In this document: positions 5,628-61,078 of the stretch, piece by piece
How the letters are laid out: every line of letters begins with the position of its first letter
Position numbering within the stretch: the stretch's first letter is position 1
Source of the DNA: Gigantopelta aegis
Lineage: Eukaryota; Mollusca; Gastropoda; Neomphalida; Peltospiridae
NCBI RefSeq assembly: GCF_016097555.1
Contig: NW_024533086.1
Coordinates: 1-64,000, forward strand
Length of the DNA: 64,000 nucleotides
Direction of reading: 5' to 3'
The notes under the pieces: generated by a model
What the model was told of the DNA's origin: nothing
What the model saw: only the letters and a program-made list of their open reading frames with translations
Databases searched by the model: none
Program-made: the position numbers and the translations under genes

Positions 5628-5688
5628 CGTAATACTATCTATAGGAGGAGATTGGAAACTTGATTGATCACTGAGTCTATCGTGCACA

Positions 5689-6884
5689 ATGTTAGTTGAC
5701 TTGTTCAATTTAAGATGGAGAAAGATTTTAATCCTATGCCTTCTGACTATGACAACAATATCGTTCATATACGTCATTGTCGCTATGAACACGATATCAC
5801 TTCGACCGCCATTACGGAATCATAAAGCATCTCAACAGGCAAAGGTATTTCCCGTTAAGAAAACTTATCATTGTAGAAATCTAAGTATTTCAATTTCTAA
5901 TAGCACCACTACGGTTGGAACTAGTGAAAAAATCATTCTATTATGGACAACGTGGTTTGGCATAAATTTTGTAGAATCACTTGGTAATAGTAGACCAATA
6001 ACATGTGGACCAAATAAAAATAAATGTTTTTGTTACTGGTGACAAGAATCTTTATTCTAATAGCAGTGCTGTAGTTTTTCATATTCCAGAAGGTGATTTA
6101 TTAAAAAGTATTATTGCTGCCAGTGATATGAGTCGACCACAGACCAAAGGTGGATTTTCTTCACTCAAGAGCCACCACCAAAATATTCTTAGATATCACG
6201 AATTTCTCCCATATTCCAGATCTCTATTTAACTGGACAATGACATACAAGTTTAGTTCAGATATTAGACAAAGTTATTCTTACGTAGTGCCTGGAAAGTT
6301 TAAAGGTGGTTATGATCCTAACAGAAATTATCTTGAAAACAGAACTAAAACAGCTATTGCTTTTATAAGTAATTGTAAACGTCCTCGTTTACATGCAGTA
6401 AGAGAATTAAAGAAATATATTGATGTCGACGTCTATGGTAAATGTGGAAACCAATGTAAAGCTGACTGCTTCTCTTTGTTACCAAAGTACAAGTTTTATT
6501 TGGCTTTTGAGAATGCTGTATGTGAAGACTATATTACAGAAAAAACATACAGAAATGCCTTCACTAATGATATAGTTCCAGTAATAATATCAGGGGCAAA
6601 CTTGTCAAATCCTGAAGTCGTTCCTCCCAATTCATTTATTAATGGACTTGATTTTAAGAGAGCTGTTGATCTCGCTGATTACCTCAAAAAATTGGTGGTG
6701 ATCCTCAACTTTATAATAAATTCTTCAAATGGAGAGATGAGTGGTCTTTAAGTGATGGTGGGACCTATCTTATACCTTGTGATGTGTGTAACAAACTGTA
6801 TGAACCTATCAATGTATAACAGTATATGATGACATTGAACAATGGTATAGTGTCCAATATGACTGTAAACAATATACAAAATGA
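5689..6884 (+). CDS. Alpha-1,3-fucosyltransferase (GT10), copy 1
   Basis: Predicted Golgi type II membrane enzyme that would move fucose from GDP-fucose to a glycan. The start at 5689 gives a short cytosolic tail (MLVDLFNLRWRK), one membrane span (about residues 12-32) and a short stem. The catalytic part has ILLWTTWFG, CGPNKNKCF, FNWTMTYKFSSDI, YGKCG and the GT10 signature YKFYLAFENAVCEDYITEK followed by VPVIISG. Length, ~390 residues, fits the family, and the gene is intronless. Single-base frame breaks lie near 6035 (KCF/VTGD), near 6690 (A-run before the C-terminal SDPQLYN-like part) and near 6815. Copy 4 is readable past the last two, though it has its own break at the KCF point, so errors or recent damage are equally possible. 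GT10 identity is firm; linkage specificity cannot be read. Confidence 0.85.
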
Positions 6885-11757: not shown

Positions 11758-12410
11758 ATGTTTTCTGACTTCTTCAATTTAAAATGGAGAAAGAATTTGT
11801 TCATGTGAACTCTGGCTATGACAGCAGTAACGCTAGTGTATATGATTGTCAGTATGAACGTGATATCACTTGGACCACCATCATGGAGTATTCCTGATTA
11901 TATAGCATATGACAGTACTACCCAATCAACATCACCTCCTGTTCAAAATAGTACCCAGTCAAAGTTACAACTCAATAAAAAAACTTACCATTGTAGAAAT
12001 CTAAGTACTTCAATTCTTGATAAGACCACTACTGTTGGAATTATTTTATTATGGACAACTTGGTTTGGCATAAATTTTGTAGAATCACTTGGTAATAGTA
12101 GACCAATAACATGTGGACCAAATAAAAACAAATGTTTTCTTACTGGTGACAAAAATCTTTATTCGAATAGCAGTACTGTAGTTTTTCATATTGTGGAGAG
12201 CCATTTTATTAAGTTATTAGAGCGGCTTATAATATGAGTCAACCACCAGACCAAAGGTGGATTTTCTTCACTCAAGAGCCACCACCACATATATATGAAT
12301 ATCATGAATTTCTCCATATTCCAGATCTCTATTTAACTAGACAATGACATATAAGTTTAGTTTCAGATAACAGACAAAGTTATGCCTACGTAGTTCCTGG
12401 AAAGTTTAAA
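11758..12410 (+). pseudogene. GT10 fucosyltransferase copy 3, 3'-truncated by a pogo fragment
   Basis: Starts MFSDFFNLKWRKNLFM, closest to copy 4. In the membrane span a TGA stands where copy 4 has TGC (CATGTGAAC versus CATGTGCAC), a true nonsense change rather than an indel. The frame resumes (LAMTAVTLVYMIVSMN), the stem has extra STTQSTSPPVQNSTQS-like residues, then ILLWTTWFGINFVESLGNS and CGPNKNKCF. Further shifts occur near 12,205 and 12,300-12,365. The copy stops after VPGKFK at ~12,410, before the family signature, where pogo transposase sequence begins without a terminal repeat. It cannot make an active enzyme as written. Confidence 0.85.
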
Positions 12411-14479: not shown

Positions 14480-15020
14480 CTTATTAGTAATCAAGTAACT
14501 TAATTTCATTACGAATAGAGTGCAGTCGTAGATGGTGAAATACAATAAGTTCTGAACCAATGATTCAGTAATCATCTCAAAAGCAATCTATAAGATCAGA
14601 TCTATATAATAAAGTGCACAAAAAAGTACCAGTAAAGAACAATTATGGTACCTTGCAAGCGTGGCCACACCTACTCAACTAATTGCTGTCTGATCAGTTA
14701 ACAGAATATAGAACTTTGAGTATAGTGTTGTAGCTCAGTCAATACTTGATAGCAACAACCATAGCTCTCTTGCTCAGCTTTGTTCTTCAAGGAGTAGATG
14801 AATCTACATCATACTCGTCCACGCAACAATGCTTCCGATTATCTTTTAGAAAAAACTGTTACTACTCAGACGAGCTTTCTGATTTTTTAAAAATACCTTC
14901 AATGTGTTTTGATACCAGCGAATTTTAGAAACGCCATAGGAGTTTATCCTGCTAGATACGGCGGAAGAGATATATCTGTACCTCCGCCTACTGTACATTC
15001 AATCTCAGATTTGCTGCATC
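14480..15020. other. Intergenic, upstream of GT10 copy 4
   Basis: No gene recognised. The last ~30 bp (CAGATTTGCTGCATC before the ATG) recur directly before GT10 copy 5 at 32,174. Confidence 0.4.
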
Positions 15021-16246
15021 ATGTTTTCCAAACTCTTCAATTCAAAATGGAGAATGTATTTGTTCATGTGCACTTTGGCTATGACAGCACTAACCCTAGT
15101 ATATATAATTGTCAGTATGAACGTGATATCACTTGGACCACCATCATGGAGTCATCCTGATAATATAACGTCTCAAATTATTATCCATTCAAAGTTGTTA
15201 CCCATTAAGAGAACTTACCATTGTAGAAATCTAAATACTTCAATTCGTGATAAGACCGCTACTGTTGGCAGTAATAGGAAAATCATTTTATTATGGACAA
15301 CTTGGCTTGGCAGAGATTTTATTAAATCAATAGGAAGAAGTGGGCCAATAACATGTGGACCAAACAAAAAATAAATGTTTTCTTACTGATGACAAGAATC
15401 TTTATTCGAATAGCAGTGCTGTAGTTTTTCATATAGCGGAAAGTAAATTTATTAAAAAGTCTTAATTCTGCTAGTAGTATAAGTCGACCAACTGACCAAA
15501 GGTGGATTTTCTTCACTCAAGAGGCACCACCACGTATATATGAATATCGTCATTTTATCCCCTATTCCAGATCTTTATTTAACTGGACAATGACATACAA
15601 GTTTACTTCAGATATAAGACAAAGTTATGCCTACATAGTTCCTGGAAAGTTTAAAGGTGGTTATGATCCTAACAGAAATTATCTTGAAAACAGAACTAAA
15701 ACAGCTATTGCTTTTATAAGTAATTGTAAACGTCCTCGTTTACGTGCAGCAAGAAAATTAAAGAAATACATTGATGTTGATATCTATGGTAAATGTGGAA
15801 AGCGATGTAAACCAAACTGCTTCTCTTTGTTACCAAAATACAAGTTTTATTTGGCTTTTGAGAATGCTGTATGTGAAGACTATATTACAGAAAAAACATA
15901 CAGAAATGCCTTCACTAATGATATAGTTCCAGTAATAATATCAGGAGCAAACTTATCAAATCCTGAAGTCGTTCCTCCCAATTCTTCCATTAATGGACTT
16001 GATTTTAAGAGAGCTGTTGATCTGGCTGATTACCTCAAAAAAATTGGTAGTGATCCGCAACTTTATAACAGATTCTTCAAATGGAGAGATGAGTGGTCTA
16101 TAATAGATGGTGGTACCTATCGTGTACCTTGTGATGTGTGTAACAAGCTGTATGAGCCTATGCAATGTATAAAAGTATATGATGACATTGAACAATGGTA
16201 TAGTGTCCAACATGACTGTAAACAATATCCAAAATGGAATAGGTGA
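15021..16246 (+). CDS. Alpha-1,3-fucosyltransferase (GT10), copy 4, most complete
   Basis: Predicted Golgi type II fucosyltransferase of ~405 residues. ATG at 15,021 (MFSKLFNSKWRMYLFMC), membrane span LAMTALTLVYIIVSMN, short stem, catalytic domain with ILLWTTWLG, CGPNK, FNWTMTYKFTSDI, YGKCGKRCKPNCF, signature YKFYLAFENAVCEDYITEK, VPVIISGANLSNPEVVPP and C-terminal CDVCNKLYEPMQC ending KQYPKWNR. From ~15,465 to the stop it is one open frame of more than 250 codons. Only two one-base shifts occur, near 15,365 (A-run at PNKNKCF) and 15,460 (A5 run), both homopolymers. It may be intact in the real genome. The Cys-rich tail suggests the disulphides of secretory-pathway GT10 enzymes. Confidence 0.88.
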
Positions 16247-20129: not shown

Positions 20130-21913
20130 TTTCAGAGATGACTTTGGGAAAAAAAAATGTTCTTTTTTTAGCAAATTAGATTGACTTGCTTTGGTTCCCT
20201 GAGGTGGTTTTGGCTTTGTTAGCAAAGAAAGCCAGTAGTTATAGCACTGGTCAGATTTTATGTCATATCCTTCTCCAACCTTTTTGCAAACTTGATAATT
20301 TCTTCCTGTGAAAAGGGTGTGTGAATATCTGAAGCTGCTATAGGAGAAGAGGTATCATGAACAGCAAAGGTAACTTAACGAGAGGAAGCAGGAGTTAAAG
20401 AAACCTCCAATGATGAAGATAAGATCCTACGGAGACAATTGGAGAGTGGGAAGTGGGAGTTGAACATGACAGTGATGAAAGAACATTAATGGGAGATAAA
20501 TCAGCAGTGGAGGATGAACTAAATAAGAGAGTGTCATTGAAAGCAGAAGAGGTAGCCGAAGTATCATTATGGCTATTATAGTGTGTGTTCAGTATGAGAT
20601 GAGTAAGGACGTGAAGGAGTAAGTAACGGACAAGGAAGGTTTAGCTTCATTTTATCAGAAATACATGTAGTGTCTTTAGATAAGAGCTTATCCCTATTTA
20701 CAGGATAAACACCAGTAACTCTGAAGCCACTGATAATGTTGACAGGTATCACAGACTTAAACCATGCCCGTCCAAATAATAAAGAAAATTGGTACCGTGT
20801 GATAACTTTGCCTGGATTGGATTGAATGTATGAATGACATTCTTCTCTTCATGCCTGTTTTAATGGGCCAAAAACACCTTTGTCCAAAGGTTGTGTTTTG
20901 TGCGTGGTGTTGGGAGGAAGACACAAAACAACTACTTCCTCTTCAGCAGCTCTATTAATAAACTGAGGGCTAAAGTGGCTGGAATGGCCATCCATTAGCA
21001 GTAGTAATGGCCTAGAGGCTGGTGCATGCCGTAGGAAGTGGTTTGCAAACCAGTCTCAAAAGATATCTGAATCCATCCAACCACTGTCACTTAGTCCATA
21101 CCTAGTATCTGGAACTTCACCACGAATTAGTTCTTCTGTAAGGTTTTTTCGGTCAAAAATTACAAGAGGTGGTATGGCGTTTCCTGAAGCACTAACGCAA
21201 GCAAGAACTGTAATTTGACTCTTTTCTTGTCCATTTATAGAAATGGGATGCTTGGTGCCTCTCTTAGCCACAACTTTCGGTGCTTTAGGACTAAGTCGAA
21301 ACCCACTTTCATCTAGGTTGAAAATCTGGCCTGGATGCTCTGTTAGATTACACTGTGTAAGAGTACTTTCTAAGAGATCAAAGTAGTTGGTTAATACAGA
21401 GTCTGACACAGCTGCCATTCTACAGTGAGACATAGGCTCTGGTTGTCTTAAAGTTAATTTGCTGTGCTGACTTTGAAAAGATTTCCACCACCCAGCTGTT
21501 ACTTTTGGCAGAAATTCCTTTCATGTCAACTGTGCTCTGTCCCAATTGGATGACTTCTTGTTAGATCTGGAGTGGGGTGGTTTAGATTTGGAGGAACCTA
21601 AAGAGGCACAATGATTCAAAAAATGACGAGCTCTATTTCCTCAGTAGAATTCAGATGTCTACGAGGTCCACTTTTAGATCCAGCCAATACTTTTCCTACA
21701 ACTCAATCATGCAAGGTTGACTTTGGGATACCGTATTCTTCTGCTGCTCTACGCACACTCATTCCTTTGCTAACAGCCTCATAAGCATAATCGAGTTTTT
21801 TCTTTAGCATAATCTTTATATTGCAAAGGACGACCAGAGGTTAATAGTGGTTAATGCTGGATCTGTGTGATATGTAGATACGGCTCCTTCAAAGGTGGAC
21901 AAGCAACTGCCAT
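20130..21913 (-). pseudogene. Pogo/Tigger-type transposase P2 of inner element, nearly complete
   Basis: Likely start ATG at 21,913 (MAVACPPLKEPY). N-terminal helix-turn-helix near 21,700-21,800: VRRAAEEYGIPKSTLHD then VGKVLAGSKSG. DDE domain with all three acidic positions: IFNLDESGFRLSPKAPK, LLLLMDGHSSHFSPQF and PLDKGVFGPLK (about 20,870-21,350), plus ITVLACVSASGNAIPPLVIF and GEVPDTRYGLSDSGW. C-terminal part has NPGKVITRYQFSLLFGRAW, NIISGFRVTGVYPVNRDKL and FSQEEIIKFAKRLEKGYDI, then a Lys/Glu-rich coiled coil near 20,000. Interrupted by a few stops (after the N-terminal QIQH, within TLHD-VGK, before DWFANHF) and shifts. Best preserved transposase here. Confidence 0.88.
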
Positions 21914-48400: not shown

Positions 48401-51400
48401 CAGCATGTTCTTTCAACAATAGCTCAACAACTTGGGTATGACCATTTACACTAGCTAGCATTAGCCAGTCCATTCATTTCTTCTTCTGAGTATTTATGTT
48501 GCATGTTCTTTAAGTAGTGTTTTCAACAAACTGGGTATGACCATTTAAACTAGCTATCATAAGGGCAGTCCTTCCATCATTTTTTCTGAGTATTAATGTC
48601 AGCATGTTCTTTGAGTAGTAGTTCAACAACCTCGTGATGACCCCGTTTTTGACTAGCTAGCATTAGGGGCAGTCCATCCATCTTTTTTCTGAGTATTAAC
48701 ATCAGCATGTTCTTTGAGTAATAGTTCAACAACCTGATGATGACCCTCTTGACTAGCTATCCATTAGTGCAGTCCATCCATCTTTTTCCTGAGTATTAAT
48801 GTCAGCATCTTCTTTAGCAATAGTTCAACGACCTGAGTATGACTATTACAACTAGCTAGCATTAGAGCTGTCACTCCGTCTTTTCCCTGGTGATTAATGT
48901 TGGCATGTTCTTTAAGTAGCAGTTCAACAACCTGGGTATGACCATTTAAACTAGCTATCAAAGGGCAGTCCATCCATGTTCTTCCTGATTATTAATGTCA
49001 GCATGTTTCTTTAAGTAGTAGTTCAACAACATCAATATTGCCATCTCTGGCAGCTTCATGAAGACTGGACATCAATCCTCTATTAAGGATACTAATATGT
49101 AATCTTTCAGCTTCTATTGAATTTTGAAGAACATATCCGAAGCTAAAGCTATGGTATAATCTTCTATTAAAATAGGTTGATCACCAATATATACTTCATA
49201 AACACCAAACTGATACATGACTCCCTTTGATCTATTGCAATGACTATAAGACTGTCTAACTGAGACTTGGGAACTACAAACTTACAAACACATGACAATC
49301 CTCTTCCTCAATTATAATGTGATTCAGAAAACGAGTCTCTTCAGAAAATGAGTAATTGAGAAATTTGTGTAAATGGACTACATTTTTTCTGTTGCCATTG
49401 TTCATGAAACTTGATGATCATTGTACATGTCCTTGTTGTAGTAACTGGTGGATTGAAGTAATGGTATGTGTTTAATAGCCTGTACAAACAACTGTAGTTG
49501 AGTAGTTTCTTCAAAAACCTAACCATACTAATGTAGTCTTGTAAACGATTTTGAAGTTTACCTCCAATAAACTTATCCACTATTTTCTTTAGTAGGTCTA
49601 TATTTAAGAAATAGTAATGAGGTTGAAGACATTGAAGAGTTGGTCTATATTGTCCACTTTTAATTCAGTGTCCCCAAGATAATGATGAAGAAATTCTATG
49701 ACATCAACAATGAGAACAGTTCCTTCTGTTATTAGTTTCTGTAGACTTGATAGAATTGCTTCATTAAGAATTGTAAAGCTGTCACAGATTTTCAAGAGTT
49801 GTTCAAGTACCTCTTCCTCACTTTTCTTGATCTTCACAACATAAACTGTTGTAACAATTTACAGATATCTTCTCTTCCTTCTTCTCTTACTTTATCTACA
49901 ATACTCTGGTCATAATAAAGACATTTAGATTGAACACCAGCTTTAAGTAGTTGTTCTATAACTTGAAGTGATTTGTGTTTTGTTATAGCATATACTAGTG
50001 GACTGTACCCATCATTGTCTGTTTACTATTGACATTAGCTCCTGCTTGTAAGAGGACTTGTACTGTCTCTGTATGTCCACAAGATAAGGCTATCATAAGA
50101 GGAGTGATGCCATTAGCTAGTGTACAATTGATATTGACATTGGTGTCATAAATATGGCTTTTTGTGGGTATCATGATCTCCTTCAAGCACATAAAACAAA
50201 AAAGTTGGAATTCATTGGTATAAAAAAATCAAGTAGCTTTACAATAAACTGATAATAATTTGAGAGTGTCCATATTGACATGCTGTAGTAAGGGCTGATG
50301 TTACTGCACTTTGTTTTCTGGCTCTCTGTTAGATGTTCAAGTAACATTTCCACTATCTCAATAGAATTTTGACGTGTAGCAACAGTGAGTGCTGTATCAT
50401 CATTCTGGTACTGATAAGTTGATCAGCATTAAATGAAGTAATATTTTGACAATATCAGAGTATTTTTTATGACATGCTATTATGATAGCTGTGTCACCAT
50501 CATTTCTTTGTATATTGGGGTTAGTCCCAGCCTGGAGTAGGTAATTGACTATAGTGTAGGAGTTTGTATCACATGCTAGCATCAATGCAGTGTAGCCATT
50601 GTTATCTTGAATGTTAACATTAGCTCCAGCTGATACTAGTGTTTGTATAACTTGCTCATGTCGTCCTTTACTAGCTAACATAATTGCTGTACTGCCCTTC
50701 TACATTTTGATAATTGATATTATCAATTAGGTCAAGTAAGAACTGAACAGCTTCATCATCACCAGTTTTTGAAGCCTTTTGTAATGCTTGATCAAAAGAA
50801 AATTGAGTTTCTTCTTTCTCTTTCAAGATAGATTGACCATCATAGTCAGTTCAAAGATACCAATGAGTGATCCAAATTCTTTCTTTAGACTAGCAATTTC
50901 CAAGATGTAGTCTAACTTTGATTGAGTACCAGTAGAGTAACACATACTGATCCTTCCTCCACATGTATATGAGTCATTCTGATGAAACATGTGATTAACA
51001 AGTGTTTTAAAGTTCTCCAATGTTTTCTTTCCCCATTGACGATTAAGTTTGATAACCACTTCACAAGAAATTGATGTAACTTCTGGATTTGGTATCAATG
51101 CTTCTTCAACAGCATTCTTGAATTTGTTAAGTGTTGTTGATTGTTTAAATTCTTCAAGATGCTGTCTGTAAGTCTGCATATCCCATAGCATCTTTCTTTT
51201 AATTGAGAAAGTCTTCATTTTCAATGATAACATTTCTAAACACTTCAATATCAAGGTAGCTGTAATGAGGCCAAAGGGTCTCAAACAGATTGTTCATATC
51301 TGTAGTATTGGTTAGCCCTTTTATTCGGAAATATTCTCCGAGATAACTTGCAATGCCATTAAATGTATGTGTTTTCTTTTCGATTAAAGTGTTGAGAGCC

Positions 51401-53632
51401 TGTTTGGTATTTTCAACTAATTTTACAAATTTACAGTACAAACTTTCAAGTTTTCAGCTACAGGATCATCTGGAGTGACTGTTATTTTTTGGAGTTGTCC
51501 ATCTACAGTTAGTAAATCAAAATGTGAAGACTTCTCATCTTGTTTTTTGTGTCTGTTCATTTTTATCACCTTGTTTTAAAAAAGAAAACAGTAAAGAATA
51601 ACAATGATATTATCATTAACATACCTCCAAAGGTATTAGTTATCTTTGTATGATGGGATCCTATATAATGAAAAACACTAATAAAGCAAAGTCCTTACCC
51701 AGCCTAGCTTCAGAGCTTAATAGGGATATTAAACAAAAACCATCAAAACAAAACAAGATGCATGTAGTGACATCAGGTCTATGCATTCAGTAAATAACTT
51801 TGTCTGCATATTTTGTAGGCTCAAATCTATACCTGTTCAGCAAAAAATGACTTAAGTTAATTTTCAAAGGAATGTACCATTATAAGAGAGCACAGTGAAA
51901 TAGTTTTCCCTAGAATCTCTCAGAAGAGTAACTACATCCCAAACAGCTAGCCTCGTATGATTTAATACTTTATTTATGTAAAGTAGTCTATTATTCTATC
52001 TATTAGAATGGTGCTAATAGGTTCTCTGATAATCATCACACTATGAAATTAGTGTATAAGAAAACTCGCTCATAGATTAGAGTATATGATGTTTACATGT
52101 TAATATATGGTATGTATGTTTATAGACATTAATATAGTATATATATTGAACTTTACTTATATAATATAATACATTTTATAGATTTGTATCCATGGAGGAG
52201 TGCACGCATGTTACAGCTTGCTTAGTTACTATCATAATTTCACAAATAACAGGTATGACAAGAATTCTATTGGAATGATACTATACTTTAATTTTTCTAT
52301 TGGTTAAAACAATTTTAATAATGAGAACAATACATATTTGTGGCAATTCATCTCAAAAATAAGGACAACTATCACTCTACATTACTGACCTTGATGTGTA
52401 ATATCTTCTTCATCACATGAAAGATCTAGTGAGATATCACATTGCTTTTTGACTTCTTCCATCCAGTCTTGACATAACTTTTGAGCAGCTAATTTAGTAG
52501 GACCACCTTCACTGGAGAGACATTGTAAGAAAAGTTGACAATGTTCTTGTAACTTTGAAATATTGCTTGCTAATTTCATTCCACTTTCAAATTCACCAAT
52601 TACATTATAAACAGTTGGAGAATCTCTGACTGATTCACTTATCAGTCTTTTAGAATACATTGATGCAGAAAACTCGTGATAAACATCTACTTAACTGGTT
52701 ACTTAAGTCAGAAAAATGGCTTGTCAGTACACTCTTCAACACTTTATGAACTTCATCACTTTCTGAAGAAAATGTCTGGCCTCCATCCTGGCCAATTATT
52801 TCTTCTTTTCTGTCCTTCTGGTAGCCCTTGATAAAGAAAGGAAGCTATAAGGATTGAGCTTAGATGAGTGAACTGTCAATCTAGTTTCACTCATTTTTAA
52901 TGGAGTAAAGTCATATCAGAACTGTATCAAAAGACTAGCTATGTCTTTCAATATATGAAATCAATAGAATATACCTTGTTATGTACTTTACTAAACTATT
53001 ATACTACATTGATAATTATTTTAAGTACTAGTATATAATGAACTATATATAGTAGATACCTTCATCTTTAATATCTAGTTGTCTTCTCAGTGTAGTAGCT
53101 ACATCATCATCACAACTCTCAACAGCTGAAATGAGTTCTTCCCAACAGGGGCAGTACCATTTGTAATCCACCATTGTAAACCTTCTTCTAGAGCAAAGTG
53201 GTAGTCTTGATCACTGCTGGCCATTGTCTTGAGTCTTCTCCTCTCCTCTAGTGACACACCTAGAAGAATAGTGAGTTCGTTCCACTTGTTTTTAACAACA
53301 AACCACTCTTAATAAGAAGTTGTAGAGCATTAATTGATGTTAACTCTATTAAAGTAAATTGAATCATCATTCCATCAGTTATATGTTTTTATGCTTACTG
53401 ACCTGTTTTAGGTCCAGGGTTGAGTTCAATATCACCTGATAAAATGAGGAGAAGTAAAAGAAACAAAACTAGAGAGAATATCAAAGCACCACCACCCTCA
53501 TCTCCTAATATCAATAGTGACTTTATCCATCCAGGGGTATCAGTGTTAGAAGGAGTCTTTTTAGTAGTATATGGTATATGATGACAATACCATAACCCCA
53601 ATACTAGCTCTCCATTGAGAGATATCAATCAT
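45459..53632 (-). CDS. Death/ankyrin-repeat gene 1 with 2A-type N-terminus
   Basis: Multi-exon gene read leftwards: (1) 53,403-53,632, hydrophobic segment plus DIELNPGP; (2) 53,060-53,345, Death-like domain; (3) ~52,382-52,832, helical exon (SSESDEVHKVLKSVLTSHFS ... KLQEHCQLFLQCLSSEGGP); (4) from ~51,575, MNRHKKQDEKSSHFDLLTVD, a helical module (LFETLWPHYSYLDIEVF), ankyrin repeats (50,700-49,995), a second helical module (49,840-49,060), ~28 ankyrin repeats (49,010-46,200) and a C-terminal part to the stop at 45,459 (LSEQLSHTTNS). Likely a cytosolic signalling scaffold: Death domains bind Death domains, ankyrin repeats bind proteins. No NACHT or kinase domain is visible. Frames break every 200-300 bp inside near-perfect repeats, so sequence error is likely. 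Exon borders after exon 2 are approximate. Confidence 0.72.
46200..49010 (-). repeat. About 28 near-identical 99-bp ankyrin repeats
   Basis: Each 33-residue unit is close to DGWTALMIASQNGHTQVVEL then LLKEHADINTQEK. At the DNA level the units are nearly identical (for example CTAGCTATCATAAGGGCAGT, GTCAGCATGTTCTTTGAGTA). Variation concentrates at a few positions (Q/L/C before NGH; HTQ, HHQ or HHE; INTQ, VNTQ or INHQ), the ankyrin surface positions. Breaks between frames at ~46,396, 46,600-46,770, 47,097, 47,370-47,470, 47,690-48,060 and 48,410-48,760 are single-base or few-base. Confidence 0.9.
49060..49990 (-). CDS. Helical module 2 of gene 1
   Basis: Reads EEVLEQLLKICDSFTILNEA, LFNVFNLITIS, KKIVDKFIGGKLQNRLQDYI, a YHYFNPPVTTTRTCTMIIKF segment and HFVSLVVPKSQLDSLIVIAI-type end. 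The same module, nearly identical in DNA, is at 56,090-57,010 in gene 2, and a diverged version (LFETLWPHYSYLDIEVFRNV) is at 51,441-50,823 in gene 1. I do not know a family name; it precedes ankyrin repeats each time. Confidence 0.6.
51600..52380. other. Intron of gene 1
   Basis: Lies between the exon ending near 52,382 and the one starting near 51,575; AT-rich, no coding signal. Confidence 0.5.
53060..53345 (-). CDS. Exon 2 of gene 1: Death-like domain
   Basis: Acceptor TTTAATAG before 53,345, donor GAAG|GTATCT at 53,060. Reads LTSINALQLLIKSG, KNKWNELTILLGVSLEERRR, SSDQDYHFALEEGLQWWITN and, after a one-base shift near 53,145, WEELISAVESCDDDVATTLR. The order W-x-x-L...LG(V/L)S...D...AL...WW...W-x-x-L-x-x-A(V/L) is that of Death domains. 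Another one-base shift lies near 53,305. Confidence 0.7.
53403..53632 (-). CDS. Exon 1 of gene 1: signal/membrane segment plus 2A motif
   Basis: The open frame (to TTG at 53,626-53,628) reads ...GWIKSLLILGDEGGG, then ALIFSLVLFLLLLLILSG and DIELNPGP (codons 53,410-53,433), then KT and donor CAG|GTCAGT. D-x-E-x-N-P-G-P is the strict core of 2A translational-recoding peptides, where the ribosome skips the last G-P bond. There is no in-frame ATG in this exon; ATG at 53,630-53,632 is one frame off, so a base error or an upstream exon is required. The splice phase (ACA G | AG TTA) joins cleanly to the Death exon. Confidence 0.75.
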
Positions 53633-53639
53633 AATGACC

Positions 53640-54105
53640 TACAAACAATCAATATATCAAAAGACAACTTGTTCTACATATTTACTTACCTTTTGTTCCT
53701 GTCTGTACACCACATACAATGTAATATCAACACTTTATTATATACTCAACAGAAAGACTATAGACTAGTAGACAATTGAGTAGCTGTCAAAGACAGAAAG
53801 ATAAGAAGAAACAAAAGTAACTTAAATAACAACATAAAAACAGCTATCAAGATAGAAAGCTAGGAAACAGGAAGTTCTTACATATGTTAGGAATTCAAGT
53901 TAGCTATTAGCACTAGTTAATTATCTTGTCAATTTAATTACCAACTACAAGTTAACATAATTCTGTTACTGTATATCACTACATGTAGTTCAATATATAC
54001 TATTATCATTTCATTATCCTTACAATTGTACAACTTTAAAGACTATTTTGTATCCATAGTATTCAATAGTTATTAATAATTCTCTACATATTTGTCTGTT
54101 TATAA
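53640..54105. other. Upstream region of gene 1, nothing recognised
   Basis: AT-rich spacer between the 2A exon and duplicated block R2; it should hold the gene 1 promoter unless a further 5' exon exists. Confidence 0.4.
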
Positions 54106-57600: not shown

Positions 57601-58783
57601 GACTATAGTGTAGGAGTTTTGTATCACATGCTAGCATCATTGCAGTGTAGCCATTGTTATCTTGAATGTTAATGTTAGGTCCAGCTGATATTAGTGTTTC
57701 TACAACTTGTTCATATCCTTCTTTACTAGCTAGCATGAGTGCTGTCATACCTTCTTCATTGCAATAGTCTATGTTGCCTCCTAACTCAAGCAGAAATTGC
57801 ATAGCTTCATTATGACCAGCTTTTGTAGCTTCAAGAAGAGCTGACTCAAAACTAAAGTTCATATTCTCATCTCTTCCAGGATAGGTTCACCATAATTGTT
57901 AAGCAAATATACCAATGAGACGCATAAACTGTAGCTTGCCTTGAGCATAAGCTATGAGATAATCAACTTTTGATTCATGGACAAAATTTAATACGAACTG
58001 AGCCTGTCTCTATTTCAATATACTTCAAAATTGAATCCTTTGACTTGTAAGGTAGTAAATGTCCTATTAGTAGATAAAGTCCTCGAAACATTGGCATCAT
58101 TCCATGGATTGTGTAATTCAATATAATTTGAGGCATGCTTGTTAGATCTCCTAGATGTGGGGTGTATATGCGTTTTTAATTGATGTTTGAGTTGTTTCAC
58201 AGTAAATGAGCAACGTAAAGTCTCAAACTCTACTTTAAGTTTAGTGACTAGGTTTTTCATGTCTCTCTCCAAAATATTCATTCTTGAGAAACTTTTCACT
58301 CACATGAACAATTTATTCACAGTCTAAAAGTCAAAATTATGATGTAGTTTCTCGAAAAGTTCATCTAAATCATTACATTTGTTGATGTCACTCAGTTCTT
58401 CAACCCCGTATAATTCATACTTAATAAATATTGTGACATCTTCTAATTGTAGTAGTTGATGTTTGTAGTTTATGATTTAAAAGCGGATCGAACAGCAACT
58501 ATTAAAGTACTGAAGTTTTGATGTAAACTCTGTAAAAGGTTCGAAGTTCCTTCTCCTTCTCTTTTATTTATTACTTCTACTTTTTGTTGATGAATGCTAG
58601 AGGCTATTGAGGTATATTTATAATGAGATACTGAAATTTATAATACCTTGGAAAGTAGTTGATTGTACTGAAGTTTGTTTTGTAAAGAAGTATTAGGTTT
58701 TAGAGATATTTCTGTAGTTAAAGCATGTTCTTGTGATTTTTCTAGAGTAGATTCTAAACCCTGCCTTGATGTAAACACTCCAC
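54700..58783 (-). CDS. Ankyrin-repeat gene 2, paralogue of gene 1
   Basis: Read leftwards: exon 58,650-58,783 (GVFTSRQGLESTLEKSQEHA..., acceptor CCATGTAG, donor AAG|GTATTA), exon from ~58,604 (SSIHQQKVEVINKREGEGTS, NLLQSLHQNFSTLIVAVRSA), helical module 1 (58,440-57,880), ankyrin repeats (57,860-57,000: SALLEATKAGHNEAMQFLLE, MTALMLASKEGYEQVVETLI), module 2 (57,010-56,090) and ~14 diverged ankyrin repeats (56,080-54,720). Modules and intervening repeats are almost identical to gene 1, so the genes are tandem duplicates. No 2A exon, Death domain or clear 3' end was found. Broken by single-base shifts throughout. Confidence 0.68.
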
Positions 58784-59964: not shown

Positions 59965-61078
59965 CTAATTGCATAATTTACTTGTTAGTCTTTGAAAGGT
60001 TTGGTTAAAATATCGACTCATAATAAAAGTTCTTTCCCTTCTCCTCACATTAAATCTGAGCTTATAGCGAAAATGAAACAGTAAACCCACATTGATTGGT
60101 ACATTATACAAGGGAGTATAGCCTTTTTTTAGCTTCAGCAATAGAATGAACATCAGCTGCTATCACTGCTTTAGGTTGAACGATTAACTTATGATTGACA
60201 TAATTTTGGTATCTCCTATAGGATCCCTACTTCGCAATGTTTGAGTGAAGTAACGAGCCAACTCATACTTGAGCATTTGTCTGACTTAATGACTTCAGGA
60301 AGACTAACTCCATCACTTATAAAATGAGTATGAAAAAATATATACACAGCTGCATTAGGACATAAATTTTTTCAGTGTTGGAAAGCATATCAGTAATTTT
60401 AAAGTAATTCATATCTTGTGGAATAAAAAATTCATCTATATCCATCAAAGCTAGATACTTCACGCGATACAAATTATGATAAATGCAATCATTTATTAGT
60501 GCAGATTGACCCCGCGTTATATCATATCCAAGTAACACAGGTTGTTTTTTTAAGTTCCAATATAGTATCTCAACTAAACCTTCATCGATGTATGGTTTCA
60601 TAATTTTGTAGAATGATTCCGGAACATTCTGAAAATAAATAGTAATGATTTCTGCACCCAGTACTAAGTTGAGTTCTACCCAATTTAACAATACTTGTGG
60701 ATCCTTAATATCATAGAGAGATTGATGTAAACACACACCAAATGTATAAGTCTTCTTTGGATTATCTTCTGGATTGGAATTGGGGGTGTCAAGTATTTGC
60801 ACTGGCTATTGGTTGAAATTCTAACTTCGTGTTGGTTTCTTCGCCAACAGTTTCAACTTTATTCTAAGAATATGTGATATCCAAAATAGACTCTGTCTTA
60901 CAACAGGATTCCCAACCTTTTTCTGATAGCTTACTTGTATACACAAACATTTGGCTTTCATTGTAAATTATCTTTGCATATAGTTCAGGTAATTTATTCT
61001 TGAACTTCATATCATGCACACCGATAAAAACATGCCTATATCAGATTTATCAGTTCTATCATAGTAAGCAATATTCCT
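59965..61078 (-). CDS. GT92-family glycosyltransferase, copy B
   Basis: The N-terminal exon follows a TTTAG acceptor near 61,079: NIAYYDRTDKSDIGMFL, KFKNKLPELYAKIIYNESQM, WESCCKTES. The catalytic part is open at 60,317-60,802: YTFGVCLHQSLYDIKDPQVL, WVELNLVLGAEIITIYFQNV, VEILYWNL, GQSALINDCIYHNLYRVKYL and the metal-binding MDIDEFFIP (60,428-60,442). The C-terminal part at 59,965-60,150 holds GLLFHFRYKLRFNV. This is the GT92 (DUF23) layout, Golgi enzymes that add galactose in known cases; the acceptor here is unknown. Frameshifts near 61,030, 60,830 and 60,320 break the text; a membrane anchor exon was not found. Confidence 0.78.

Follow-up and report, generated by a model that had tools for sequence, protein, structure and literature searches.

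A stretch of 64,000 nucleotides from the Gigantopelta aegis assembly (GCF_016097555.1, contig NW_024533086.1, positions 1 to 64,000; hereafter the window) carries on its minus strand a leader exon that ends in a 2A (StopGo) ribosome-skipping motif and stands in splice phase with the Death-fold exon of an ankyrin gene. The leader consists of a conserved N-terminal block (N-block), a linker, a hydrophobic segment and the 2A core; it is conserved and under selection, and it occurs both in the organism from which the contig derives and in the demosponge Amphimedon queenslandica. We propose, with a probability of about 0.7, that a recoding leader of this kind heads intracellular signalling genes of several families in sponges, where it would be released during translation and a cytosolic protein freed.

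The leader exon (53403..53638, minus strand) begins behind the acceptor TTTGTAG|GTC, includes the family ATG at 53,630-53,632, and runs through the N-block, linker, hydrophobic run and 2A core to a phase-1 donor. A 51-nucleotide (nt) intron is predicted immediately 5' of it (53639..53689, minus strand), preceded by a short 5' exon ending AACAAAAG|GTAAGT. Read on the minus strand from 53,484 down, the order is LIFSLVLFLLLLLIL-SG-DIELNPGP-KT, then the donor ACAG|GTCAGT after 53,403. The hydrophobic segment LIFSLVLFLLLLLIL (53440..53484) was assigned from the hydropathy of relatives and from a helix at residues 47-65 in a low-confidence model of the relative P0001; the core DIELNPGP lies at 53410..53433, with release expected between its G and P. 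Two codons and one base follow the core, and a 57-nt intron separates the donor from the acceptor AATAG|A of the Death-fold exon, which opens E-LTSINALQLLIKSG. The phases are compatible, the split codon G|AG giving KT-E-LTSINALQ, and the splice sites are conserved in paralogs: the donor GTCAGT is kept in 16 and the acceptor AATAG|A in 15 of 17 aligned paralogous loci. An earlier note on the window had described a hydrophobic run of about 16 residues, DIELNPGP, two codons and a donor whose phase fits a Death exon, and all of these were found on the minus strand as claimed.

DIELNPGP conforms to the StopGo core (D/G/C/N)(V/I)ExNPGP, although the frame on its ATG side is broken in the window copy, and it is the sole match to [DGCN][VI]ExNPGP across the six frames of the 64-kb window. 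The expectation from composition is 9e-5, and none of 60 first-order Markov shuffles contained the motif; the 2A motif in the window is real and not a chance match. The hexapeptide preceding it, LLILSG, is that of a known active StopGo class. No stimulatory RNA structure was found at the skip site (z +1.74), as expected if the effect acts through the nascent peptide. The spliced 5' reading (53715-53690 joined to 53638-53629, minus strand) holds an 11-codon upstream open reading frame, MWCTDRNKRSL, whose TGA overlaps the leader ATG (ATGA); the upstream ATG is missing in some paralogs, for example at locus L005.

Relatives of the leader were collected by protein searches. A search with the leader, restricted to 0.55-1.75 times the query length and returning relatives that are short by construction, gave 152 matches at E<=1 (best E 1.8e-34), the best 120 of which are listed; for long relatives, leader plus Death gave 114 matches (110 with the core) and the leader region gave 112 long proteins (110 with the core). 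Aligned, the best 120 show an N-terminal block MID[IT]xQWRxxIGLWYCHQI, a variable linker and a C-terminal block FLLLLLILSGD[IV]ELNPGPKTG, with the core intact in 114, changed at one residue in 4 and lacking its end in 2. The leader consensus reads MID[IV]SQWRxSIGLW, linker, about 16 hydrophobic residues, LL[IL]LSGD[IV]ELNPG/P and a phase-1 donor. The core is present in 334 of the 346 listed relatives (DVELNPGP in 194, DIELNPGP in 123) and is preceded by LLLLSG in 153 and LLILSG in 141, together 294 of the 334, with at least three leucines in 318; these relatives are largely paralogs and not independent, and the word-based search biases conservation upward. Two JGI relatives, P0209 and P0225, read LSGNVELNPGP, that is, with N at p12.

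The N-block pattern is found in 104 of the 112 long leader-region proteins. No Pfam family was found for the leader in the three leader-only proteins tested (the window piece, P0001 and P0116). A resemblance of the N-block to RHIM-like amyloid motifs was considered and dropped, since no such motif appeared when 8 proteins were compared with Pfam at E<=10. P0133 holds two complete leaders in tandem in one open reading frame of 370 residues, both ending in DVELNPGP. In the Amphimedon models P0311, P0325-P0333 and P0337, PPTG, LPTG, KQTNR or a similar sequence stands immediately before DVELNPGP, which looks as though splicing had removed the L-rich segment; the L-rich codons with TATCAG|G resemble a 3' splice site, and such splicing, if real, would disable the 2A.

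The assembly containing the window (1.149 Gb, 5,216 contigs) has 78 leader hits, which merge into 63 loci on 35 contigs. A Death exon lies within 1.5 kb on the same strand at 36 of the 63 loci, within 42-176 nt at 34 of these, and the leader stands upstream in 36 of 48 Death loci of the type. The leader is uninterrupted in 9 of 30 fetched loci, representing 8 places (L005 and L015 are one place). For these 8 intact leaders the pooled ratio of nonsynonymous to synonymous substitution rates (dN/dS) is 0.39 (bootstrap 0.28-0.57), with 0.29 for the N-block, 0.58 for the linker and 0.24, the lowest, for the hydrophobic segment plus 2A; the use of intact copies only favours a low value.

Downstream of the leader in the window, the Death-fold exon (53060..53345, minus strand) lies behind AATAG|A and is spread over three frames, its fold being taken from the paralog L007. 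The next exon (52382..52844, minus strand), over two frames, is CARD-like by its position and by the UniRef names of related proteins; it has no Pfam match. A conserved unnamed domain, collinear in several paralogs, follows at 50823..51575 and the ankyrin repeats of the same gene at 50400..50699 (both minus strand; Pfam Ank 2.9e-23), with further pieces to about 46,200. This order of Death, CARD-like exon, unnamed domain and ankyrins is collinear across several loci. None of seven NACHT queries matched the window at 1e-3, in agreement with the earlier suggestion of a Death/ankyrin gene without NACHT behind the 2A. The window copy thus differs from the sea-urchin SpNLR2A type in not being attached to a NACHT protein, although NACHT is present at sister loci and in Amphimedon relatives. 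NACHT stands behind other leaders of the same assembly at L011/L048, L016, L025 and L030/L042, and more weakly at L022/L043; at L025 the order is leader, Death, CARD-like, NACHT. Behind the intact leader L003, an open frame of 873 residues with near-identical ankyrin repeats was found (L035:7382-10000, contig C1080, minus strand), with no Death exon of the window type detected between the two.

The leader is not peculiar to Death/ankyrin genes, judging by the precomputed Pfam annotation of the 112 long proteins (counted by hand): 64 have NACHT, 43 ankyrin without NACHT, 2 a phosphorylase domain and 3 none of these. Amphimedon queenslandica, the organism named on every named long-relative row except P0132, accounts for 82 (NACHT 64, ankyrin without NACHT 13, phosphorylase domain 2, none 3), and the remaining 30 are all ankyrin proteins. 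Of the 43 ankyrin proteins, ten were given to Pfam, and eight of these have Death between the 2A and the ankyrins (7/8 from Amphimedon, 1/2 others; E 3e-8 to 0.0076), above the curated cut-off in three. The combination that the earlier note had proposed, a 2A followed by Death and ankyrins without NACHT, is therefore present in Amphimedon, with 13 records having ankyrin without NACHT and Death present in 7 of the 8 tested. In P0139, P0143 and P0147, a degenerate second NPGPITG (SNANPGPITG or SSANPGPITG, without DxE) comes after the first death-fold domain, as though left over from a second leader junction; a CARD-like domain follows it in P0143 and P0147.

The identity of the Death-fold exon was examined in the paralog L007, whose model (14 alignment rows) has a predicted local distance difference test score (pLDDT) of 89 and the six helices of a death fold. 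In a Foldseek search with this model, the first 16 rows were all death-domain structures (probability 0.82-1.00), the top row being FADD in the Fas/FADD complex (probability 1.00, template modelling score 0.75, E 0.16). No Pfam Death match above the gathering score was obtained after the 2A for the window pieces (no match), L044 (E 0.047) or P0121 (E 0.012). The leader model of P0001 (30 rows) places helices at residues 4-18, 34-44 and 47-65.

We hypothesize that in intact copies translation would start at MIDxSQWR and proceed through the N-block, the variable linker and the hydrophobic segment to the L-rich StopGo/2A LLILSGDIELNPG/P, where a leader of about 74 residues would be released without a stop codon while the ribosome continues. 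The downstream product would be a Death-(CARD-like)-ankyrin protein with an N-terminal proline, or a NACHT protein in the sister genes. Skipping by intact leaders is very likely, given the activity of the LLLLSG-like class (PMC12846837) and the 2A recoding described for sea-urchin NLRs (PMC4981915). The released leader would then be a membrane peptide resembling tail-anchored proteins and the downstream protein would be cytosolic, with only the unskipped fraction forming a membrane-held fusion; we infer membrane insertion from the geometry of the leader, and the two destinations from the tested sea-urchin 2A as well.

Window-type leaders of about 74 residues have one hydrophobic segment, at about residues 48-66 and not at the very N-terminus; across 113 leaders, the end of the best hydrophobic window precedes the NPG glycine by a median of 7 residues. 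By position, it would be a C-terminal anchor. The ribosome tunnel holds some 30-40 residues. With its end about 7 residues short of the point of release, the segment would still be in the tunnel at the 2A and could not have met the signal recognition particle (SRP), so the released leader should insert after release, like a tail-anchored protein. The hydrophobic part of the "signal-like peptide" of the earlier note is therefore present, but the simple signal label does not suit a leader with a conserved N-block and its membrane segment at the C-terminal end. Among the leaders of long proteins, two or three hydrophobic segments occur in 91 of 108; the median position of the strongest is 68 residues upstream, where SRP could engage first. 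Since translocation of some upstream proteins has been described to inhibit the 2A reaction (de Felipe et al. 2010, PMC2978324), docking at the endoplasmic reticulum (ER) could act as a switch. As a tentative and rather unlikely extension, sponge innate signalling might in general use a translation-coupled switch, in which each receptor or adaptor is made with its own tail-anchored partner, the N-block has its role at the membrane, and whether the ribosome is docked at the ER or free decides between a cytosolic receptor with a free partner and a membrane-held fusion.

Several observations weigh against a recoding leader. No Death exon of the kind described accompanies 27 of the 63 leader loci, and 21 of the 30 fetched loci lack an uninterrupted leader. 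The dN/dS values come from intact copies only. The core is absent from 12 of the 346 listed relatives, and 16 of the 334 core-bearing relatives have fewer than three leucines in the hexapeptide, 12 of them being long models with PPTG- or KQTNR-like contexts. Among the long proteins, the 16-residue stretch ahead of the core attains a mean hydropathy of 1.6 in just 54 of 110. In the structural comparisons, no Foldseek row for the L007 model has an E below 0.001, and the P0001 leader model is of low confidence (pLDDT 64). Finally, as assembled, the window copy has no single frame through ATG, leader, 2A and Death.

In the window copy, the family ATG opens MIDISQWRASIG, after which a GGGG (53596..53599, minus strand), located by alignment of 17 loci between the ATG and the hydrophobic run, shifts the 2A frame by one base; the frame holding the motif has no ATG. 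Of the 17 loci, 15 have one base fewer at this site, and four G are found only in the window (L001) and in L002. The concern that DIELNPGP might be out of frame is thus borne out in part: the splice phase from the core to Death is in frame, and the frame from the ATG to the hydrophobic run is off by one base. Together with the Death exon over three frames and the CARD-like exon over two, at least four one-nt breaks run across the leader, Death and CARD-like exons, which, with the extra G shared by L002, would suit a true pseudogene. That explanation we consider possible but unlikely, because most pieces flanking the breaks share 85-93% identity with L044, an intact paralog (one 24-residue Death piece has 58%), and because other genes of the contig are split likewise. 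Three fucosyltransferase-type (GT10) stretches on the plus strand (5668-6751, 11809-12237 and 14940-16246), which we read as copies of one gene type, are each split over frames, and the two of them compared with Pfam gave matches (E 1.3e-35 and 8.9e-46); they point to one-nt errors in the assembly of this contig. The presumed source assembly is described as PacBio-based, built with Canu and wtdbg2 with rescue of low-coverage edges, two rounds of Racon and bacterial filtering, and polished once by Pilon with short reads from the snail foot only (PMC7895826). The frame breaks of the window copy are most likely assembly errors.

Among alternatives to a recoding leader, an ordinary membrane anchor would have the leader tether Death/NLR proteins, with the NPGP motif inactive or nearly so. 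Hydrophobic segments are present in all but two of the leaders scored and far exceed six residues, and transmembrane domains of sponge NLRs have been read as "putative membrane-bound NLRs" (PMC12909245). Such an anchor leaves unexplained both the near-invariant D-[IV]-E-x-N-P-G-P (with L at x) preceded by LLxLSG and the conservation of this motif to the same degree as the N-block while the linker drifts, and we regard it as improbable. In another alternative, the 2A would mainly govern expression, by shedding ribosomes or by giving a decay-marking N-terminal proline, and the released leader would have no job of its own. Termination at the 2A is one outcome in recoding models (PMC4981915), and a destabilising N-terminal proline has been mentioned (PMC12846837). 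Against this, the N-block MIDxSQWRxSIGLW is conserved between the contig's family and Amphimedon with a dN/dS of 0.29, suggesting a function of the leader itself, and we hold expression control alone to be quite improbable too. Debris of a long interspersed nuclear element (LINE) beside a Death exon by chance, which the earlier note had named as a possible undoing of its claim, is very improbable even though 2A-bearing elements without long terminal repeats (non-LTR elements) are known (PMC4981915) and 20 of 76 core matches across the assembly are on very long contigs, mostly as other octapeptides, since the same Death exon closely follows 36 of 63 leaders, with splice sites conserved, since Amphimedon proteins combine the leader with Death, NACHT or ankyrin, and since none of 17 window open-reading-frame pieces given to Pfam (a subset) is a reverse transcriptase or endonuclease of such an element.

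Although filed under a snail, the window contig, very probably an unplaced scaffold of the Gigantopelta aegis assembly, is probably sponge DNA, as judged from the named relatives, which come from a sponge, and from the introns of about 50 nt beside the leader. All 78 leader hits fall on small contigs, numbered 614 or higher. The pattern D[VI]ExNPGP has 76 matches assembly-wide (none for the reversed-pattern control), 20 of them on the very long contigs C2-C12: DVESNPGP 5, DVETNPGP 5, DVEKNPGP 4, DIEKNPGP 3, DIELNPGP 2 and DIESNPGP 1. These 20, on C2-C10 and C12, may be snail retroelements that carry a 2A. P0132, which NCBI lists under Gigantopelta aegis, matches L027 (contig C2041) at 98.6% over 73 residues, so that at least one protein of the presumed sponge DNA bears a snail name at NCBI.

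Elsewhere in the window, a stretch at 57668-58327 (minus strand) resembles the unnamed domain and ankyrins of Amphimedon P0256 (E 1.5e-29), indicating a neighbouring gene of the same kind; the leader search of the assembly gave no match for a second leader on this contig. A glycosyltransferase family 92 piece is located at 60317-60805 (minus strand, E 1.7e-21); a DDE endonuclease piece at 21056-21520 is a weak match (minus strand, E 2.5e-4).

Among the closest known systems is the 2A of sea-urchin NLRs, for which about 80% recoding in vitro has been reported, with a cytoplasmic product upon skipping and a product of the secretory pathway when skipping is abolished (Roulston et al. 2016, PMC4981915). 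The two have in common that the 2A stands at the N-terminus, or close to it, in Death-domain proteins of innate-immune type and that a hydrophobic stretch directly precedes D[VI]ExNPGP; the sponge leader is likewise N-terminal with a hydrophobic segment, at about residues 48-66. The sea-urchin element comprises 26 residues starting at the 2A itself, on NACHT proteins only, with dual targeting demonstrated, whereas the sponge leader has 74 (window type) to about 150 residues (Amphimedon) and its own N-block, heads both NACHT genes and Death/ankyrin genes without NACHT, and would have dual targeting by analogy. In RNA viruses, an LLLLSG-like StopGo class is described, of which the L-rich motif 6 is active in reticulocyte lysate, as are variants with N at p12 (PMC12846837, PNAS 2026). 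The sponge leader shares with viral motifs 2 and 6 the LLLLSG/LLILSG, D at p12 and G at p11, with N at p12 in P0209 and P0225, but it is cellular and N-terminal, and its hydrophobic run extends to about 16 residues. With the 2As of non-LTR retrotransposons (cited in PMC4981915) it has in common the core octapeptide in animal genomes; unlike them it is spliced to host Death/NACHT exons, with no reverse transcriptase in the 17 scanned pieces. The sponge NLRs with transmembrane domains (PMC12909245) are the same kind of gene, and hydrophobic segments are at issue in both; a term search of the main text of that Dysidea avara study found no recoding terms. No report of a sponge 2A was found in searches of an open-access library; the survey of cellular 2As by Rao et al. 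2025 may list some of these proteins. While 2A in innate-immune genes is already known from the sea urchin, what appears new, with priority uncertain, is a conserved leader exon with an N-block on sponge NACHT and Death/ankyrin genes.

StopGo has been described as rare in cellular genes (PMC12846837). A leader conserved and selected in at least 82 records from Amphimedon queenslandica, among them NACHT, Death/ankyrin and two phosphorylase-domain proteins, and in 63 loci of the organism behind the contig offers a large natural series of cellular 2As. From one mRNA, a small peptide in the membrane and a free signalling protein in the cytosol could both be made, which would alter the reading of sponge NLR topology as membrane-bound or released; if the translation-coupled switch holds, "membrane-bound" sponge NLRs would be largely cytosolic. 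The question raised is why death-fold genes of an early animal lineage would start with a peptide that is severed while the protein is still being made.

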